Of a stretch of DNA of 64,000 bases, positions 15,487 through 25,281 are shown in pieces. The notes under the pieces were generated by a model. It saw only the letters and a list, made by a program, of their open reading frames with translations, was not told the DNA's origin and did not search any database. How positions within the stretch are numbered: the first letter of the stretch is position 1; each line of letters begins with the position of its first letter. Source of the DNA: Muribaculaceae bacterium (GTDB lineage: Bacteria > Bacteroidota > Bacteroidia > Bacteroidales > Muribaculaceae); NCBI GenBank assembly GCA_022484565.1, contig JAKVKZ010000007.1, forward strand, positions 1-64,000. The letters are read 5' to 3'. The translations under genes were made by a program, and so were the position numbers.

Positions 15487-15759
15487 ATGGACAATAAAGA
15501 ATTGATCGACATTGTGGCAAAGCGAATGGACCGAAGTCCACGCGACGTCGCGAAACTGCTTGAAGCACTATCTACCACATTGATAGAAAAATGCGGCGGG
15601 CTTGACATCGTTGCCATCCCTGGATTCGGCTCTTTTGAGCCTAAAAAGAAGTTGGAGCGCGTCACAGTCAATCCGGCGTCGGGTAAGAAAATGCTTATTC
15701 CACCTAAAATTTCTTTGACTTTCAAGCCAAGCACAATTCTGAAATCGAGACTCCGCTAA
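15487..15759 (+). CDS. HU-family DNA-binding protein
   Basis: A 90-residue protein with the length and pattern of HU/IHF subunits: N-terminal helices (DNKELIDIVAKRMDRSPRDV), then IVAIPGFGSFEPKKK and the DNA-binding beta-arm region with NPASGKKMLIPP, and a C-terminal helix starting FKPS. The Asn-Pro-x-Ser/Thr-Gly element at the arm tip is the conserved intercalating proline region. It would bend or compact DNA in the nucleoid. A perfect promoter lies just upstream, and a second, much larger HU-type gene follows 54 bp downstream. Confidence 0.93.
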   Translation: MDNKELIDIVAKRMDRSPRDVAKLLEALSTTLIEKCGGLDIVAIPGFGSFEPKKKLERVTVNPASGKKMLIPPKISLTFKPSTILKSRLR

Positions 15760-15813: not shown

Positions 15814-17442
15814 ATGAACACAAAAATAACTTTACCTGAACTTGTCGAAGCCCTGTCCAACACCACGCACACCACCAAACGCGTGTGTGAGGCGTTTCTG
15901 AAAACATTATTCAGCACAATAGGCGACACCCTTGTGGCAGGCGACAACGTGAAAGTAAAGAATATCGGTTCATTCAAGCTAATCAACGTTGAAGCCCGGA
16001 AAAGCGTCAATGTGAACACTGGTGAGGAGATTGAAATTCCAAGCCACGCCAAAATCACATTTACTCCCGACAAAATCATTGCAGAAGCCATCAACAGGCC
16101 TTTTGCGAATTTTGAAGCCTGCGTGCTTAGTGACGATTTGGACGAGAAAGAACTCGAAAGGCTTGCATCGACTGAAACTGAAGAAGATGAGGAAGAGGAG
16201 CAGACCGACAACGCAGCGCCGACAACAGATAACGTTGCACCTACAACTGCCAGTGTTGCGCCAATAGTTATTACACCTCCACCATTTAATCCGCCGACAC
16301 CGATTCAGAACACTGATGAGCAAATCAGCGACACAGTCACGGAAAATCCAGTTGAAAAGGAAGAGCCGCAGCCAGTTGAACCAGTCGAGCAAGAGCCAAT
16401 TGCCCCGACACCAGCCGAAATCCCAGCCGAAAAGGAAACTGAGCAACCTGCTGAACCAATTGCGCCACCAGTAGAACCCATTTCTCAACCTGCTGAACCC
16501 GTTGCACCGCCAGTTGAACCCATTTCGCAGCCTGTTGAACCTGCTGCACAACCAATTGAAGCACCAATAATCATACCTTCAACACCAATTGTAGTGCCAC
16601 CTGCGGTTGAGCCGCCTGCGGAAGCCGAACCTTCGGCACAGCCGATAGAAGCAGCTGAGCCTGAACCAGTTCAGCCACAAGAGCCAATAACACCGGCTCC
16701 AACGCCTGCGACTACCGAACAACCTCAGCCAACAGTAGAAGAAACGACACCTGAGCCTGAACGTGAAATAAAGCCAGGCGTAAGAGTAGTGAAAAATACC
16801 TACAGCGACGATGACGAATCCGCGCCTGAAGAAGAGCCGACAAGGCCTCGTAAGCGTAGAAGATTTGACGATGAAGACGCTGACGACAGGCCAAGACGGC
16901 ATCGCAGCCCATACGACGAATTCAAATCCACGGAATACGGACGTAACCGTCATTCCTTCGGAATAGGATTTGTGTGGGGATTTATTTTTGCCCTCGTCAT
17001 GTGCGGTGTAGGGGCTTATTGCCTATACATATACAATAAGGACGGATGGACAAGCGGAAACGGACCTAAGGCAGCAGTGGCCGACAGCATTGCCAACAAG
17101 CCGGCAGTGCCCGTTGATTCCGTAATAGGAAATCCTGACGAGGAAATGGACTCGGCAGCGAATATGCCAGATGATAAAGTAGCATCCAATAAAGTGGTTT
17201 ACGACACAATTACAAGCCAAAAGTTCCTTACACGTCTGGCCGGCAAATATTATGGCAACAGAGTTTTTTGGGTATATATATATGAGGAAAATAAGAGCAA
17301 AATAAAAAATCCGAATAATGTAAGGCCTGGGACTGTGGTAGTGATACCTTCAGCAGCAAAGTACGGTATCGACAAGAATAATAAGGAAAGCGTTGCCAAA
17401 GCCAAAAGGAAAGAAGCCGAAATTTACGGGAAATTACAATAG
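15814..17442 (+). CDS. HU domain - Pro/Glu-rich linker - transmembrane - LysM-like fusion protein
   Basis: A 542-residue modular protein. Residues 1-90 form an HU/IHF-type domain (LPELVEALSNTTHTTKRVCE, VKVKNIGSFKLINVEARKS, NVNTGEEIEIPSHAKITF). About residues 105-330 are an acidic, proline-rich linker with repeated PVEPISQP-like units. A basic stretch (RPRKRRR; RPRRHRSPYDE) precedes a single membrane helix at about 382-405. The C-terminal 75 residues (FLTRLAGKYYGNRVFWVYIYEE, then NVRPGTVVVIP) look like a LysM fold. The positive-inside rule places the HU part in the cytoplasm and the LysM-like part in the periplasm. The protein could tether the nucleoid to the envelope. That function is inferred, and HU-type domains of this lineage may bind something other than DNA. 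Confidence 0.85.
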   Translation: MNTKITLPELVEALSNTTHTTKRVCEAFLKTLFSTIGDTLVAGDNVKVKNIGSFKLINVEARKSVNVNTGEEIEIPSHAKITFTPDKIIAEAINRPFANFEACVLSDDLDEKELERLASTETEEDEEEEQTDNAAPTTDNVAPTTASVAPIVITPPPFNPPTPIQNTDEQISDTVTENPVEKEEPQPVEPVEQEPIAPTPAEIPAEKETEQPAEPIAPPVEPISQPAEPVAPPVEPISQPVEPAAQPIEAPIIIPSTPIVVPPAVEPPAEAEPSAQPIEAAEPEPVQPQEPITPAPTPATTEQPQPTVEETTPEPEREIKPGVRVVKNTYSDDDESAPEEEPTRPRKRRRFDDEDADDRPRRHRSPYDEFKSTEYGRNRHSFGIGFVWGFIFALVMCGVGAYCLYIYNKDGWTSGNGPKAAVADSIANKPAVPVDSVIGNPDEEMDSAANMPDDKVASNKVVYDTITSQKFLTRLAGKYYGNRVFWVYIYEENKSKIKNPNNVRPGTVVVIPSAAKYGIDKNNKESVAKAKRKEAEIYGKLQ

Positions 17443-17612: not shown

Positions 17613-18608
17613 ATGACTGAATCTGTCAATATTAGAGAGCTAAACGACTTGATAGCAAGCAAAAGCAACTTTGTAAGTCTGATAACTCAAGGCATGAATC
17701 AGACCATTGTCGGTCAAAAGCATCTGATTGATTCTTTGTTGATAGCCTTGCTGGCTAATGGACATGTTCTTTTGGAAGGTGTTCCTGGATTAGCCAAGAC
17801 GTTAGCCATCAAGACTCTTGCATCGTTAATCGATGCGAAGTACAGCCGAATTCAGTTTACTCCCGACTTGTTGCCGGCTGATGTTATCGGTACAATGGTC
17901 TATAGCGCGCAAAAAGAGAAATTTGAGGTGAAAAGAGGCCCGATTTTCGCGAACTTCGTCCTTGCCGATGAAATCAACCGTGCTCCGGCCAAAGTGCAAA
18001 GTGCCTTACTTGAGGCCATGCAGGAGCGCGAAGTCACAATTGGCGACAACACTTTCAAACTCGACGACCCTTTCCTCGTGCTTGCCACGCAGAACCCTAT
18101 TGAGCAGGAAGGCACATATCCGCTTCCTGAAGCACAGGTTGACCGTTTCCTTATGAAGGTGGTAATCGGTTATCCTAATAAAGAGGAAGAGAAGCAAATT
18201 ATCCGCCAGAACATCGCAGCAGAGCCAATCAACGTTCAGGCACTGATAAAGCCGGAAGAAATAATCGAGACACGCAAGATTGTTCAGCAAATCTACATCG
18301 ACGAAAAAATCGAGAAATACATCGTTGACATCGTATTTGCCACACGTTTTCCGAGCGATTACGGACTTAACGACCTGACGAGCATAATCTCCTACGGTTC
18401 TTCACCGCGTGCATCAATCAATCTCGCGCTTTCAGCCCGCGCTTACGCATTCCTGAAGGGTAGGGGCTACGTGATTCCTGAAGACATCCGTGCGGTCAGC
18501 CACGACGTTATGCGCCACCGGCTTGGACTTTCCTACGAAGCAGAAGCCAACAATATAAGTTCTGACGAAGTAATCAGCGAAATTCTTGATAAGATAGCCG
18601 TACCTTGA
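17613..18608 (+). CDS. moxR: MoxR-family AAA+ ATPase
   Basis: A 331-residue AAA+ ATPase. Walker A reads GVPGLAKT, Walker B VLADEINRAP, followed by ALLEAMQEREVTIGD, the MoxR signature, and sensor-1 ATQNPIEQEGTYPLPEAQ. MoxR proteins act as chaperone-like partners of VWA-domain proteins. Here the gene leads a run containing a DUF58 protein and two VWA proteins (BatA and BatB), the standard Bacteroidetes arrangement. It is followed by a gap of 84 bases before the DUF58 gene and is probably co-transcribed with it. Confidence 0.95.
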   Translation: MTESVNIRELNDLIASKSNFVSLITQGMNQTIVGQKHLIDSLLIALLANGHVLLEGVPGLAKTLAIKTLASLIDAKYSRIQFTPDLLPADVIGTMVYSAQKEKFEVKRGPIFANFVLADEINRAPAKVQSALLEAMQEREVTIGDNTFKLDDPFLVLATQNPIEQEGTYPLPEAQVDRFLMKVVIGYPNKEEEKQIIRQNIAAEPINVQALIKPEEIIETRKIVQQIYIDEKIEKYIVDIVFATRFPSDYGLNDLTSIISYGSSPRASINLALSARAYAFLKGRGYVIPEDIRAVSHDVMRHRLGLSYEAEANNISSDEVISEILDKIAVP

Positions 18609-18692
18609 TGCGTAGCGTTGTCGTAAAATTAATTCAATGTGTTGATGCAATCACCATGTTGACCGCATCGAAGATTAATTCAAAAACGAACA

Positions 18693-19571
18693 ATGGACGC
18701 AACTGATTTATTAAAGAAGGTCCGTAAAGTCGAAATAAAGACCAAAGGACTATCCCAAAACATATTTGCCGGTGAATATCATTCGGTATTCAAGGGTCGG
18801 GGAATGACATTTTCCGAAGTCCGCGAATATCAATATGGCGATGACATCCGCGATATTGACTGGAACGTCACAGCACGTCACAACCATCCTTATGTGAAAG
18901 TATATGAGGAGGAGCGTGAACTTACCGTGATGCTTCTTATTGATGTGTCGGGCAGTAAGAATTTCGGTGCCGTAGGCGCTGAAAAGCGTGAAATCATCAC
19001 TGAAATTGCCGCCACTCTGGCATTCTCCGCCATACAGAACAACGATAAAGTGGGCGTGCTGCTCTTCACTGACAAGATTGAAAAGTTCATACCGCCGAAA
19101 AAGGGAAGGAAGCACATTCTTTTCCTCATCAGGGAATTGCTCGACTTTGAGCCGAAAAGCAACGGAACAGACATTGATAATGCGCTTCAATATTTAACCA
19201 GCGTAATAAAAAAGCGCTGTGCAACATTCCTGATTTCCGATTTCATCGACACGCACGATTATTTCAAGTCAATGTCGATTGCTAACCGCAAACACGACGT
19301 TACCGCCATTCAGGTGTACGACAAGCGCGAAGCCCAACTGCCTAACATTGGCCTGATGAAAGTGCTCGACGCTGAACGCGGCACGGAAAGGTGGATTGAC
19401 ACAAGCTCATCAAAAGTGAGAAGAACCTACAACAAATGGTGGTACGAACGCCAGCAGTTTATGAACCAGACCGTTCAACGCTGCAACGTGGATATTGCCT
19501 CAATAGCCACCGACGAGGACTATGTGAAGGCTCTGATGGTAATGTTCAAAAAGCGCAGCGGCGTGAGATAA
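18693..19571 (+). CDS. DUF58 domain protein of the Bat operon
   Basis: A 292-residue soluble protein. The DUF58 core is seen as GRGMTFSEVREYQYGDDIRD followed by IDWNVTARH, and a degenerate VWA-like fold follows (VMLLIDVSGSKNFG, LLFTDKIEKFIPPKKG, FLISDFID). The MIDAS-like DVSGS is intact. DUF58 proteins nearly always sit between moxR and VWA genes and are thought to be part of a MoxR-dependent assembly at the membrane. The start at 18693 gives the family's usual N-terminus (ATDLLKKVRKVEIKTKGLS). Confidence 0.93.
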   Translation: MDATDLLKKVRKVEIKTKGLSQNIFAGEYHSVFKGRGMTFSEVREYQYGDDIRDIDWNVTARHNHPYVKVYEEERELTVMLLIDVSGSKNFGAVGAEKREIITEIAATLAFSAIQNNDKVGVLLFTDKIEKFIPPKKGRKHILFLIRELLDFEPKSNGTDIDNALQYLTSVIKKRCATFLISDFIDTHDYFKSMSIANRKHDVTAIQVYDKREAQLPNIGLMKVLDAERGTERWIDTSSSKVRRTYNKWWYERQQFMNQTVQRCNVDIASIATDEDYVKALMVMFKKRSGVR

Positions 19572-19582
19572 ATCTGAATTAT

Positions 19583-20596
19583 ATGAGAAAAATCCGCATC
19601 ATATTATATGCTATTATTATTGCAGCCACAACTGCATTTTCAGCCCAGGCTCAAAAGAGCGTGATAATCAAGGCAAAACTTGATTCAGCACTTTTGTTGA
19701 TGGGCAAAAAGACTGCAATCCACATCGACATCACACAGGACAAAGACGTAAAGGGCTATTTCACAAATGAAAAGTCCGATACTCTTACATCAATGGTTGA
19801 AGTTTCAGCCCGTCCTAAAGCCGATACTACCGACATAGGCAACAACCGTATTCAAATCAAGCGCGACATCATTATCCAGTCGTTCGACTCGGGTATGTAT
19901 GTGATTCCGGCATTTAAGTATGTGGTGGGAAAGGACACGTTCATGACCAACTCCCTCACGCTGAAAGTTCTGCCGGTGAAAGTGAACACGCTGAAGACAA
20001 TCCACGACTATAAGACAGTGGAAGACCCGCCTTTCCACTTTTTTGATTTTCTGCCTTCGTTCATAACTGATTATTGGTGGATATATCTCATCGTGCTTAT
20101 TCTTATAGCCAGTGGCATCTACGCCTATATCAAGTGGTTCCGCAAGGGAATCGTTCCATTGATGCCGAAGAAGAAAGAATTGCCACCTTACGAGGAAGCA
20201 ATGATGCAACTTGAGCAACTCAAGTCGCAACAACTCTGGCAGTCGGGGCAGGAAAAGGAATACTATACGCAGTTGACCGACATTTTGCGCAACTACATCG
20301 ACAGGCGATTCCTAATCAGCGCAATGGACATGACTTCAAGCCAGATTATCGAGATTCTTAAAAAGCATGAGGAGACCAAGGCAGTGAACGAGCAATTGAG
20401 CCAGATTCTTGAAGTGGCCGATTTTGTGAAATTCGCCCAAGTCCGCCCGTTGCCTGACGATAATGAGGCTTCATTCCAGCGTGCCATCAATTTTGTGGAA
20501 GAGACCAAACCTGAGGAAATAGCCGCATCCAACAAACTCACCGCCGCTCCTGACGCAAAGCCGACAACCACCATAAAAAAGGAGGATAAGAAATGA
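19583..20596 (+). CDS. membrane protein of the Bat operon (short BatD-like)
   Basis: A 337-residue protein with an N-terminal signal peptide (IRIILYAIIIAATTAFSAQA), a periplasmic beta-rich domain to about residue 160, one membrane helix (YWWIYLIVLILIASGIYAYI) and a cytoplasmic helical tail with a Pro/Thr/Lys-rich end. The layout is like a shortened BatD: beta domain outside, one helix, helical tail inside. It occupies the place of the gene sometimes called batG in Bacteroides. I chose the ATG at 19583; longer reading upstream overlaps the DUF58 gene. Its stop overlaps the batA start (ATGA), so the two are translationally coupled. Confidence 0.82.
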   Translation: MRKIRIILYAIIIAATTAFSAQAQKSVIIKAKLDSALLLMGKKTAIHIDITQDKDVKGYFTNEKSDTLTSMVEVSARPKADTTDIGNNRIQIKRDIIIQSFDSGMYVIPAFKYVVGKDTFMTNSLTLKVLPVKVNTLKTIHDYKTVEDPPFHFFDFLPSFITDYWWIYLIVLILIASGIYAYIKWFRKGIVPLMPKKKELPPYEEAMMQLEQLKSQQLWQSGQEKEYYTQLTDILRNYIDRRFLISAMDMTSSQIIEILKKHEETKAVNEQLSQILEVADFVKFAQVRPLPDDNEASFQRAINFVEETKPEEIAASNKLTAAPDAKPTTTIKKEDKK

Positions 20597-21582
20597 TTCT
20601 GTACCATCCATATTATCTTTGGCTGTTCCTGATTTTCATTCCGCTTATCGCATGGTATATTTGGAGGCAAAAAAAAACTGAACCGTCGTTGCTCCTGTCA
20701 ACCACAATGCCTTTCGACAAGATAGGGACATCGTGGAAAGTGATTTTCCGCCATTTCCTCTTTATTCTGCGTCTGGCAGCTATCGGATGCCTGATTATCA
20801 TCCTTTGCCGCCCGCAGACTCATGATAAATGGTCAACTTCCGAAACCGAGGGCACTGAAATAATTGTAGCGCTCGATGTGTCAACCAGTATGCTCGCACG
20901 CGATTTCCGGCCCGACCGCTTTGATGCCGCCCGCAACATGGCTTCGCAGTTCATTGCCGGTCGTGAATCGGATAATATCGGTATTGTGATATTTGCAGGC
21001 GAGAGTTTCACGCTCGTGCCAATCACAAGCGATAAATCCGTGCTGATGAACCAGATGCAGGACTTGAAAATAGGAGTGCTTGAGGACGGAACAGCGATAG
21101 GCGACGGAATTGCCACGGCAATCAACCGCATAAAGAACGGCAAGGCCCGCTCCAAGAGTATTATCCTGCTGACCGACGGCTCAAACAACACAGGCGTTGT
21201 GGCTCCAGTGACGGCTGCACAGATTGCCCATCAATACGGCATAAAGATTTACACCATAGGAATCGGCTCTAACGGCAATGCCATGTTCCCTGTAGCCATC
21301 GACTACGACGGGAAAATGGTCTATCAGTCGCTGCCAGTTGTGATTGATGAAGGCACTTTGCGCACAATTGCATCAGTGACCGGCGGCAAATACTTCCGCG
21401 CCACGAGCAACGGTGTGCTGAAAAGCGTGTTCAATGAAATCGACAAATTGGAAAAGACCCGGCTTGATGTGAAGAATTTCAGCCACACCGAGGACAATTA
21501 TCTGCCTTGGGCTATATTGCTTTTCATCCTTGTAGCAGCCGATATGACGATACGCTACACGATATTGAGGAAGATTCCTTGA
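20593..21582 (+). CDS. batA: BatA, VWA-domain membrane protein
   Basis: A 329-residue protein with two N-terminal membrane helices, a VWA domain facing the periplasm and a final C-terminal helix (YLPWAILLFILVAADMTI). The MIDAS metal site is complete: DVSTS near residue 96, the threonine in EDGTAIGDG, and LTDGSNNTG. BatA belongs to the Bacteroides aerotolerance system, linked to survival of oxygen exposure in B. fragilis. The ATG overlaps the previous stop. The paralog BatB follows 45 bases downstream. Confidence 0.93.
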   Translation: MILYHPYYLWLFLIFIPLIAWYIWRQKKTEPSLLLSTTMPFDKIGTSWKVIFRHFLFILRLAAIGCLIIILCRPQTHDKWSTSETEGTEIIVALDVSTSMLARDFRPDRFDAARNMASQFIAGRESDNIGIVIFAGESFTLVPITSDKSVLMNQMQDLKIGVLEDGTAIGDGIATAINRIKNGKARSKSIILLTDGSNNTGVVAPVTAAQIAHQYGIKIYTIGIGSNGNAMFPVAIDYDGKMVYQSLPVVIDEGTLRTIASVTGGKYFRATSNGVLKSVFNEIDKLEKTRLDVKNFSHTEDNYLPWAILLFILVAADMTIRYTILRKIP

Positions 21583-21627
21583 TGCCACACGTTGGCAGTT
21601 TGATTTTCAATAATTGAATTAAAAATT

Positions 21628-22668
21628 ATGTTCAGTTTCGCAAATCCACAATACTTTTTATTACTGCTGATAATTCCGCTATTATTGGCACTTTTCCTTT
21701 TGGCAAAATTCTCAAGGACCAGGAATCTTCAAAAATTCGGTCATCTTGAGGTGCTTGCCAAATTGATGCCCGACACGTCGAAATATATGCCTTGGATAAA
21801 AATCACGCTTCAGCTCATTGCTGTCGCTCTGATTGTGGTTATCCTTGCTAGGCCTCGGGCTGGCGCGAAGGACCAGAAAGTGAAAGTTCACGGCATTGAG
21901 GTGATGATTGCGCTTGATGTGTCGAATTCCATGATGGCTTCAGCGACCGACGATCCCAACGGAGTGAGCCGCCTGCAATTGTCGAAGATGATTCTTGAAA
22001 AGATGATTGATAATTTCGAGAACGACAAAGTGGGATTAATAGTTTTTGCGGGCAACGCCTACACACAGCTGCCTATCACTACTGATTACGTTTCGGCAAA
22101 AATGTTCCTCAACGAGGTAAGCACTAAAATGGTACCGACTCAAGGAACAGCAATAGGTGCAGCCATAAAACTTGCGGCCAACTCATTCACGCAGAACAGC
22201 AAATCACAAAAAGCTATTGTGGTAATCACTGATGGTGAGAACCACGAGGATGATGCTGTGGCTGCCGCCACCGATGCGCGTAAAAGCGGCATTCAGGTGA
22301 ATGTGATTGGTATCGGTTCAACTAAAGGCTCAACCATTCCACTCGGCAACGGAGGCCTTTTCAAGGATGATAACGGAAATGTGGTGACCACATGCCTCGA
22401 CGAGAAAACGGCACAGGAAATAGCCGCAGCCGGAAAAGGCGCGTACATTTCGGGAGGTTCCAGCGATGCTGCCACAACTTTAATCGACCATCTGCAAAAA
22501 TTGGCGAAATCGGACCTTCAGACGTTTGAATACACTCAGCACGATGAGCAGTTCCCGATTTTCGCATGGTTGACACTGGCATTTTTAATACTTGATATTT
22601 TTGCGGGCAACAGCAAAATATCATGGCTTAAAAACATTAATTTCTTTACTAAGGAGAATAAAAAATGA
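21628..22668 (+). CDS. batB: BatB, VWA-domain membrane protein
   Basis: A 346-residue paralog of BatA with the same architecture: two N-terminal helices, a VWA domain and a C-terminal helix (FPIFAWLTLAFLILDIFAG). The MIDAS residues are in ALDVSNSM, the TQGTAIGAA segment and VITDGENHED. The N-terminus FANPQYFLLLLIIPLLLALF is the usual BatB start. It is coupled to batC by an ATGA overlap. It is expected to work with BatA and MoxR in a membrane complex whose biochemical role is not settled. Confidence 0.94.
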   Translation: MFSFANPQYFLLLLIIPLLLALFLLAKFSRTRNLQKFGHLEVLAKLMPDTSKYMPWIKITLQLIAVALIVVILARPRAGAKDQKVKVHGIEVMIALDVSNSMMASATDDPNGVSRLQLSKMILEKMIDNFENDKVGLIVFAGNAYTQLPITTDYVSAKMFLNEVSTKMVPTQGTAIGAAIKLAANSFTQNSKSQKAIVVITDGENHEDDAVAAATDARKSGIQVNVIGIGSTKGSTIPLGNGGLFKDDNGNVVTTCLDEKTAQEIAAAGKGAYISGGSSDAATTLIDHLQKLAKSDLQTFEYTQHDEQFPIFAWLTLAFLILDIFAGNSKISWLKNINFFTKENKK

Positions 22669-23447
22669 AGAAATCATTTTATATAATATTATTCATGCTC
22701 ATCTCGCTTTTTGCAGTTGAGCCTGCCGTTGCCGACAACAAGACGACAGACCCGACAAACAAGAAAGAGCGTGCATTCATCAAGCAAGGCAATAAATATT
22801 ACAACGATAAGCGGTATTCCGAGGCCGAAGTCGAGTACAGAAAGGCACTTCAGGCAAACGGCGCTTCAATGATTGGCTCTTACAACCTTGCACTGTCGTT
22901 AATCCGTCAGGACAACGGCTCAAAGGCTGACTCAAAAAATTCGCCAATCAGTCAGGCCACAAATCTTTTGGAAAAAGTGGCAAAATCGTCGAAAAGCATT
23001 GATTTGCAGGCAAAAGCATTCTACAATCTTGGAAATATAGCTTTCAACCAGAAGGAATACGCAAAAAGCATTGAATACTACAAGAATTCCCTGCGCCGTA
23101 ATCCCGACGACGACCAGGCCCGCGACAATCTGCGCCTTGCCCAGCTGAAGAAACAGCAGCAGGATAAGGGCGGCAAAAACAATAAGAACAACAAGGACAA
23201 GAAAAAAGACGATAAAGACAAGAACAAGCAAGACCAGAATAAGGACAAGCAGAATAAAGATAAACAGAACAACAATAACAATCAGAACAAACAGCAACAG
23301 AAGCAGCAAAGCGGAATGAGCCAAAACAATATTGAGCAAATTCTGAAAACTATGCAGGATAATGAGCGTGCCACTCAGCAGAAAGTGAATGCCGCAAAGG
23401 CAAAAGACAAGGAGGCCTCGCAGCGGCGCACAGGCAATCAATGGTAA
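22665..23447 (+). CDS. batC: BatC, TPR protein with low-complexity tail
   Basis: A 260-residue exported protein. A signal peptide (ILFMLISLFAVEPAVA) is followed by two or three tetratricopeptide repeats (residues about 35-155: FIKQGNKYYNDKRYSEAEVE, AFYNLGNIAFNQKEYAKSIE). A highly charged Lys/Asp/Asn/Gln-rich stretch covers about residues 162-222, and a short polar end (TMQDNERATQQKVN) follows. The TPR part fits BatC, a proposed scaffold for BatA and BatB in the periplasm. The low-complexity region is likely to be disordered. Start overlaps the batB stop. Confidence 0.92.
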   Translation: MKKSFYIILFMLISLFAVEPAVADNKTTDPTNKKERAFIKQGNKYYNDKRYSEAEVEYRKALQANGASMIGSYNLALSLIRQDNGSKADSKNSPISQATNLLEKVAKSSKSIDLQAKAFYNLGNIAFNQKEYAKSIEYYKNSLRRNPDDDQARDNLRLAQLKKQQQDKGGKNNKNNKDKKKDDKDKNKQDQNKDKQNKDKQNNNNNQNKQQQKQQSGMSQNNIEQILKTMQDNERATQQKVNAAKAKDKEASQRRTGNQW

Positions 23448-23466
23448 AAAAGAATTGGATTAGGTT

Positions 23467-25281
23467 ATGAAAATATTTAAATCATTTATTTTACTGACAC
23501 TTTTCATGCTTCTGACCTCGTGGTCGGCAAGCGCGGGAGTGTCGTTTTCTGTCCAAGCTCCACGGCAGGTCGTACAAGGCAATAAATTCAATATCACCTT
23601 TGTCCTCCGCAATGCCGAAGGCGAAGGCTTCCGCGCTCCGCAAGTGGGAGGATCTCAACTGATTTACGGTCCGGCCACTTCCACCTCCTATAGCTCACAA
23701 TGGATTAATGGTGTAAGTTCAAGCAGCTCGTCGGAAGAATACACGATGACCTACAAAGCCATTAAGCCCGGCAGATACACCGTTGGAGGTGCTGTGATTG
23801 AGGCGAAAGGCCACCGGCTTGTAACGAATCCGATTACAATAGAGATTGTTTCGTCGAGCAGGGCAGCATCGTCAAGCCAACAGTCGCAAAGCGTGCAAAT
23901 CGACAATCTCGACACTCAATCGTCGTCATCGCCGGTGAAATCGCACGACCTGTTTGTCCGCATTACACTGTCGAAACCAAGAGTTTACGAGCAAGAAGCG
24001 GTGGTCTGCACAATCAAACTTTACACAAAATATCAAATTTCGCAGTTCATGCCTACACTCCAATCCTCGTTCAACGGTTTCCTGATTGAGGATTTGCCGA
24101 TGCAGCCGAGCCTCAACAAAATTGAGCGGGTAGGGGGCGAGAACTACATGGTGGCGGTGCTCAAACGCTGCATCCTATTCCCGCAACAGTCGGGTAAACT
24201 CACCATCACTTCAGGCGACTACGATGTCACCGCAGTGCAGTACGACACTTTCCGCAGCATGTTCGGTGTAATTCGCCAGCCGGTAGAAAAGAAACTGCAT
24301 GTAAAGTCAAATTCAGCCACTGTTTACATCACTCCGCTGCCTAATCCAAAACCAGCAACATTTAATGGTGCAGTAGGTTCATTCAGAGTTGCCACGAGCA
24401 TCAAGCCTCAGCATCTTAAGACTTACGAGACCGCTGCGTTGACGTATGTAATCAGCGGTACCGGCAACATCAAGTATCTGAAGACGCCTACAATCAATTT
24501 CCCATCGCAGTTCGACGTTTACGACCCGCAAAGCACTGTTAAGGCAGGTCCTGTAGGTGGCACAGTAGCAGGCACCACAACAATCAACTATACGTTTATC
24601 CCGCAATTCACAGGCAATTTCGATATTCCGGGCACAGTGTTCACATATTTTAACCCAGAAACGGGAAAATACGTAACGCTCACCACTCCGAAATACAATG
24701 TCAACGTAGCCAAAGGCAAAGGCTCTCCTTCAGCCCACTATAAGAAAGGTCTGGAGCAGAAGAACACTGACATCCTGCACATCAAGACGGGTGACTTGAA
24801 TCTGTCGAAAACTCATAGCTATTTCATCACTGAATTCAGCTACTGGCTGTTCTATATAATTCCGCTGATTGCGTTCATCGCTCTGCTCATTTATTATCGC
24901 AAGACATTGAAAGAGCGCTCGAACCTGAAGTTGATGAAGACTAAACGGGCAAACAAGATAGCAAAGAAGCGTCTGAAATCGGCACGACAATACCTGAATG
25001 CGCACGACAGCAGTAAATTCTATGCTGAAATGCTCACCGCTCTTTGGGGCTATCTCAGCGACAAGCTCGGTATTCCTGTTTCCGCGCTTAACAAGGAAAA
25101 CATTGAATCAGAGCTTACTAAATTCGGCGCTGACCAAGAGACCACGGCATTGGTTCTCTCAATTCTCGACAAATGCGAATTTGCCCAATATGCTCCGGCT
25201 TCAAGCGATGCCGACATGGGCGAAGTTCTCAATTCAGCCACCGACATTATGGACAAACTTGAAAATACAAAGCGTAAATAG
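23467..25281 (+). CDS. batD: BatD, large periplasmic protein of the Bat operon
   Basis: A 604-residue protein with a signal peptide (ILLTLFMLLTSWSASA), several tandem Ig-like beta domains in the periplasm (from SVQAPRQVVQGNKFNITFVL to about residue 440), one membrane helix (FSYWLFYIIPLIAFIALLIY) and a cytoplasmic helical tail (residues about 490-604). This is the BatD (oxygen-tolerance family) layout. A serine-rich segment (SSRAASSSQQSQS) separates the first and second beta domains. It follows batC after 19 bases. Confidence 0.94.
   Translation: MKIFKSFILLTLFMLLTSWSASAGVSFSVQAPRQVVQGNKFNITFVLRNAEGEGFRAPQVGGSQLIYGPATSTSYSSQWINGVSSSSSSEEYTMTYKAIKPGRYTVGGAVIEAKGHRLVTNPITIEIVSSSRAASSSQQSQSVQIDNLDTQSSSSPVKSHDLFVRITLSKPRVYEQEAVVCTIKLYTKYQISQFMPTLQSSFNGFLIEDLPMQPSLNKIERVGGENYMVAVLKRCILFPQQSGKLTITSGDYDVTAVQYDTFRSMFGVIRQPVEKKLHVKSNSATVYITPLPNPKPATFNGAVGSFRVATSIKPQHLKTYETAALTYVISGTGNIKYLKTPTINFPSQFDVYDPQSTVKAGPVGGTVAGTTTINYTFIPQFTGNFDIPGTVFTYFNPETGKYVTLTTPKYNVNVAKGKGSPSAHYKKGLEQKNTDILHIKTGDLNLSKTHSYFITEFSYWLFYIIPLIAFIALLIYYRKTLKERSNLKLMKTKRANKIAKKRLKSARQYLNAHDSSKFYAEMLTALWGYLSDKLGIPVSALNKENIESELTKFGADQETTALVLSILDKCEFAQYAPASSDADMGEVLNSATDIMDKLENTKRK

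Follow-up and report, generated by a model that had tools for sequence, protein, structure and literature searches.

How the chromosome is coupled to the cell envelope is an old question, for which few direct molecular links are available. The locus described here raises it in a concrete form. In the window, by which we mean the whole 64,000-nt stretch of DNA that was analysed (contig C7 of genome G000 in our numbering), an ORF with an ATG start at 15814..17442 (+) encodes a protein of 542 aa that begins with an HU domain, HU1, and continues through a linker and a transmembrane (TM) helix to a LysM domain. A sequence-only reading of this ORF had listed an HU domain, a linker, a basic segment, a membrane helix and a LysM-like end, and had suggested that the protein would join chromosome, inner membrane and peptidoglycan if the HU domain binds DNA. 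All of these parts were recovered. In an AlphaFold model of the fusion, built with 34 homologs, the structured blocks have pLDDT values of about 80-98, and the two ends are predicted as an HU fold at the N-terminus and a LysM fold at the C-terminus.

HU1 occupies residues 8-94 (15835..16095, +) and matches PF00216 with an E-value of 1.4e-19 and a score of 70.6 bits, well above the cut-off of 22.4, which places it by sequence in the HU/IHF superfamily. The fold agrees with this assignment, as the model shows an HU fold including the beta arm, mostly at pLDDT > 90, and the closest solved structures in a comparison with the PDB are HU and IHF chains, with Z of about 11. The arm region (residues 52-85, 15967..16068, +; EARKSVNVNTGEEIEIP), delimited by alignment to the HU of B. 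stearothermophilus and by the strands in the model, retains Arg58 and Lys59 (HU numbering) and has Val where Pro63 would stand. The intercalating Pro63, which is typical of HU proteins and not universal, was found in none of 96 Bacteroidales HU1 sequences, 68 of which have Val. This substitution excludes neither membership nor DNA binding, since the other HUs of the genome carry Leu or Ile at the same position. These two proteins (Leu in L001, on G000:C17; Ile in L002, on G000:C37) presumably bind DNA, and their residues suggest that aliphatic wedges may be widespread in the group. HU1 has hardly any net charge (0 in the window, mean -1 in Bacteroidales), and its arm is deleted in 12 of the 66 Bacteroidales sequences compared, some of them of Muribaculaceae type. 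Right after the domain comes a family motif, N-x-PF-x-x-F (NRPFANF, residues 94-100, 16093..16113, +), whose N94, F97 and F100 are invariant in all 34 sequences of the representative alignment.

The linker that follows (16174..16842, +) is Pro/Glu-rich, predicted to be cytoplasmic and disordered in the model (pLDDT < 60), of low complexity and without sequence conservation. The PVEPISQP repeats that had been pointed out in it are present as two copies within a 7-residue repeat of the x-P-x-E-P type, detected by TRF as a 21/42-nt array at 16443-16554. Next are a basic juxtamembrane segment recognised from the sequence (TRPRKRRRF...RPRRHR...GRNRHS, 16843..16953, +) and a single TM helix at about residues 381-409 (16954..17040, +), which is helical in the model and corresponds to a hydrophobic helix in homologs. 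Because the basic segment lies on the N-terminal side of the helix, the positive-inside rule would leave HU1 and the linker in the cytoplasm and the LysM domain in the periplasm.

The LysM domain, at about residues 459-513 (17188..17352, +) and containing an invariant FWVYIYEEN, was assigned from a profile, a Pfam match of a homolog and the model. In a single-sequence Pfam scan the region of the window protein alone stays below the PF01476 cut-off (12.6 vs 20.9 bits), whereas the homolog L076 exceeds it with 25.2 bits. The family profile of the C-terminal domain leads to Kbp of E. coli, matching its LysM with an E-value of 1.1e-8, and the model, with its beta-alpha-alpha-beta unit at residues 462-511, aligns to Kbp (7pvc) over 64 residues with Z 8.1 and rmsd 2.1. 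Among the best-ranked Foldseek matches listed for the whole fusion model there were HU proteins and no LysM, which came up in the second comparison. By the modelled fold, then, the C-terminal domain is a LysM, and the possibility that it might prove unrelated to LysM, which would have told against the earlier description, is set aside by the profile, the model and the homolog. Kbp, the closest LysM among solved structures, is a potassium-binding protein, and a lone LysM can bind weakly, which calls for caution about peptidoglycan binding. Following the domain is a conserved tail helix (KYGID...SVAKAK, 17353..17439, +; helix 524-540 in the AlphaFold model) with invariant K, Y, I, D and A columns. 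This KYGID...S..KA element lies outside the LysM fold as usually defined; it may provide a docking site particular to this family.

The fusion is not peculiar to this genome. Within the family, 147 of the 149 genomes sampled contain a match to the query, many of them with both ends, although matching was piecewise and some of the matches possibly cover the HU part only, and a search of genome contigs yielded 80 named loci that carry the labels Muribaculaceae, Barnesiella, Dysgonomonas, Prevotellaceae, Bacteroides and other Bacteroidales, with the reservation that MAG labels may err. Across the order, long matches joining both ends were found in about 20 families (198 genomes, representing about 120 families of the order). 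Other families of the same class gave only plain HU among the matches listed, while the full architecture reappeared in one family of another class, f142, possibly Balneolaceae. A chance fusion or a frameshift artefact is ruled out by this conservation, and the fusion is a conserved protein rather than a chance joining.

Directly upstream of the fusion, separated from it by 54 nt, the window carries a gene for a stand-alone HU of 90 aa, HU2 (15487..15759, +; VNPASGKKMLIPP), which matches PF00216 with an E-value of 4e-19, has a charge of +8 and retains Pro63 at the tip of its arm, and which by its adjacency is the candidate partner subunit. In all 80 named Bacteroidales loci HU2 adjoins the fusion and shares its strand; stop and start overlap in 23 of them with a gap of -4 nt and in 6 with one of -8 nt, and most of the others have gaps below 30 nt. 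In the second class it stands beside the fusion in all 27 loci, among flanking genes unlike those of Bacteroidales. The loci had been chosen by the fusion and not by the partner, so the pairing is not an effect of selection. HU1 and HU2 of the window are about 26% identical, and profiles made from the Bacteroidales proteins assigned the f142 proteins correctly in 27/27 cases for HU1 and 27/27 for HU2. Since the sorting was without error, we regard HU1 and HU2 as separate ortholog families of ancient origin. HU2 is the less derived of them, as its profile also scores ordinary HUs.

A different arrangement of the same parts is found in the family f87 (38 genomes), possibly Porphyromonadaceae, in which all 30 proteins read have HU2-HU1-linker-TM-LysM in one chain and no separate partner gene was found in the loci first examined. 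Over these 30 proteins, the first HU scores higher with the HU2 profile and the second with the HU1 profile, and most of them have N-[KR]-PF-x-x-F, the HU1-specific motif by which we recognised HU1, after the second HU. The domain order, HU2-HU1, is the gene order seen elsewhere. Gene fusions are classical evidence for two proteins acting in one complex. Both HUs of f87 (L137, L143, L173-L200) have diverged strongly, several falling below the Pfam HU cut-off and a few, short or very diverged, scoring only about 7-13 bits; the LysM and the N-x-PF-x-x-F motif are still recognisable. Such divergence suggests that DNA contact may be relaxed in this family.

The two genes of the window share a reading frame and are parted by two TAA codons, and these were read as Gln, for modelling only, so that HU2 and HU1 could be predicted as a single chain. 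The resulting model (mean pLDDT 86, pTM 0.76) has single-chain IHF, 2iif and 2iie, as its best Foldseek matches, over 205 columns with an E-value of 1e-8. VIA-align scores 2iie at Z 11.2 and doublet-microtubule chains at up to Z 13.5, and the best whole-chain matches, at Z 11-13.5, include the latter and chains of the Mycoplasma gliding machinery. The matched doublet-microtubule chains appear to be CCDC81-type HU tandems. AlphaFold readily pairs any two HU domains, and the model shows that an HU1:HU2 heterodimer is feasible without excluding homodimers. Taken over loci, second class, natural fusion and profiles, HU1 and HU2 behave as two distinct, co-conserved subunits in the manner of IHF. 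From the adjacency, the ortholog families, the natural fusion and the model, we consider that they very probably form a heterodimer.

The two subunits seem to contribute unequally to any contact with DNA. HU2 is basic not only in the window but in general (mean charge +7.4), retains K53, K54, R58, K67, R68, K80 and K86 in most Bacteroidales sequences, and has Pro63 in 69 of 81. With HU1 neutral, carrying Val at the wedge and lacking its arm in some lineages, this points to HU2, rather than the fused HU1, as the subunit that probably supplies most of the DNA contact. In f142, Pro63 is present in the arms of both HU1 and HU2 at 27/27 loci; since both subunits keep it there, DNA binding by the pair is likely ancestral, with HU1 having drifted toward an anchoring role in Bacteroidales. 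HU2 has lost Pro63 in 8 of the 12 cases in which the HU1 arm is deleted and in 2 of the 54 in which it is kept (Fisher p 3e-6). These amount to about 3 independent changes, which is not significant on the tree, and a statistical coevolution of the HU1 arm with Pro63 of HU2 was rejected. DNA binding may be gone in the arm-deleted lineages, judging from the residues lost. To take the change in the HU1 arm as proof of lost DNA binding would be too strong, given that the other HUs of the genome lack Pro63 and that the second class keeps it.

The main rival to a DNA-binding unit is a heterodimer of HU1 and HU2 that acts as a protein-binding membrane adaptor, in which case the LysM would give a cytoplasmic scaffold its hold on the wall, with no contact to DNA. 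Adaptors of this kind have parallels in the eukaryotic CCDC81-type HU tandems and in the HTH domain of RodZ. The structural proteins (doublet microtubules, Mycoplasma gliding machinery) among the best matches of the HU2-HU1 model would suit a scaffold, and so would a neutral HU1 whose arm is lost in some lineages and the strong degeneration of both HU domains in f87. However, the full basic DNA-contact set and Pro63 of HU2 are retained in most Bacteroidales and both arms of the second class are canonical at Pro63, and with these we regard a scaffold as possible but rather doubtful.

The genes around the pair suggest another role, that of an envelope sensor-regulator, in which the membrane-held HU pair would act on transcription, for instance that of the MoxR-Bat operon, in response to the state of the wall as sensed by the LysM, possibly after proteolytic release. 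An operon of the type MoxR-DUF58-BatA/BatB-type VWA-TPR-BatD-like lies directly downstream in the window (17613..25281, +) and is a frequent, though not universal, neighbour in Bacteroidales: MoxR follows the pair in 37/80 named loci, 19/29 loci of the order and 12/30 of f87, and in all these sets the flanks were often too short to show it. But no MoxR stands beside the pair in any of the 27 second-class loci, so that the core unit can do without it, and HUs as a rule bind DNA without sequence specificity; the Bat operon was rejected as part of the core unit for its absence beside the pair in the second class, and a sensor of this kind is unlikely. It could also be argued that HU1 forms a homodimer at the membrane while HU2, though transcribed together with it, is a soluble nucleoid protein of the common kind and never touches it. 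Adjacency by itself is no proof of contact, and most bacterial HUs are homodimeric according to passages of a 2017 survey (PMC5683647). Against this stand the constancy of the pairing in unlike gene contexts (80/80 and 27/27) and the joining of HU2 to HU1 in 30/30 f87 proteins, which leave two independent neighbours with a very small probability.

Considering these findings, the reading that we prefer is that HU1 is the membrane-anchored subunit of an asymmetric HU heterodimer, completed by the HU2 encoded upstream, that links nucleoid, inner membrane and wall; taken as a whole, we hold it to be evenly balanced between right and wrong, and its parts differ in strength. What the results establish is the anatomy, the LysM fold, the deep conservation, the constant pairing of the genes and the natural tandem fusion. 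The link between chromosome, membrane and peptidoglycan proposed from the sequence is compatible with the evidence but incomplete, as the HU domain has an obligate partner, encoded by a neighbouring HU gene, and is not a lone DNA binder. Peptidoglycan binding by the LysM end, suggested by its predicted fold, is reasonably probable, and DNA binding by the HU1:HU2 dimer, suggested by the residues retained, is moderately so, a shade less firmly. It can be envisioned that HU1 and HU2 pair in the cytoplasm as an IHF-like dimer whose basic HU2 half would grip nucleoid DNA, aided by what remains of the HU1 arm. The long, acidic and flexible tether would then lead to the single membrane helix, and the LysM outside would fix the protein to peptidoglycan. 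Such a unit could serve in chromosome positioning or segregation, or keep the growth of the wall in step with DNA; we infer the exact cellular role only weakly. That much of Bacteroidales, together with a second class, has an obligate asymmetric pair with one transmembrane, LysM-bearing subunit as a dedicated nucleoid-to-wall tether, its subunits fused in one family, is plausible, unproven and offered tentatively.

A precedent for a LysM-anchored chromosome positioner, with no homology to the present protein, is HubP of V. cholerae, in which a peptidoglycan-binding LysM anchor is combined with an acidic cytosolic part and the origin of chromosome 1 is positioned via ParA1 (PMC8789113). HubP/FimV proteins resemble the fusion in having LysM outside, one TM and a long acidic cytosolic part. 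They differ in their order, LysM-TM-acidic repeats-C-terminal TPR, in their dependence on ParA1 and in being without HU (PMC8789113), whereas the fusion has HU at the N-terminus and LysM at the C-terminus. The pair also resembles IHF alpha/beta and E. coli HU alpha/beta, likewise made of two diverged HU subunits that pair; unlike in these, one subunit here carries a membrane anchor and a LysM in the same chain, and arms and charge are asymmetric.

Comparable in architecture are the HU-CCDC81_bac_1/_2-TM-SPOR proteins (PF18174, PF18175) of Bacteroidota, which likewise combine tandem HU domains and a membrane helix with an envelope-type domain at the C-terminus. They differ in that their HUs belong to other clades, the end is SPOR-like and not LysM, and both HUs lie in one gene. 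The window fusion matches neither PF18174 nor PF18175 and HU2 reaches 13.4 bits against a cut-off of 26, while L115 of the same genome matches both; with the Pfam cut-offs not reached, membership in HU-CCDC81 was rejected. L115 (G000:C8, 637-1677, -; 346 aa) is itself a second HU-to-envelope protein of this genome, with two CCDC81-type HUs, a TM helix and a C-terminus labelled SPOR-like by eye, SPOR being unreported by Pfam. A further relative may be HU_bacL, a Bacteroidetes clade of HUs with long charged C-termini that the 2017 survey defined (PMC5683647). Like the fusion, HU_bacL is specific to Bacteroidetes and its HU is extended by a long Glu-rich stretch that contains Pro, and the clade possibly overlaps the fusion family. 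The survey's passages on HU_bacL name neither an envelope domain nor a partner gene, and the word 'membrane' is absent from its text as available (PMC5683647). Literature searches for a description of an HU-LysM or HU-membrane protein found none, which does not prove that there is none, and in the literature searched, whose coverage stopped short of the comparative-genomics paper on HU clades, neither the HU2 partner nor the natural joining of HU2 to HU1 nor the occurrence in a second class was described. Known already, then, are the HU-CCDC81-TM-SPOR relatives; for the obligate HU pair we found no description.

The findings suggest that HU heterodimers could be asymmetric and membrane-bound, and the HU-SPOR proteins noted earlier fit a broader pattern of HU pairs on envelope anchors. 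With a conserved protein that would carry a histone-like dimer and a putative wall-binding fold at its two ends, and with a defined partner gene, the coupling of chromosome and envelope becomes directly testable in tractable Bacteroidota.
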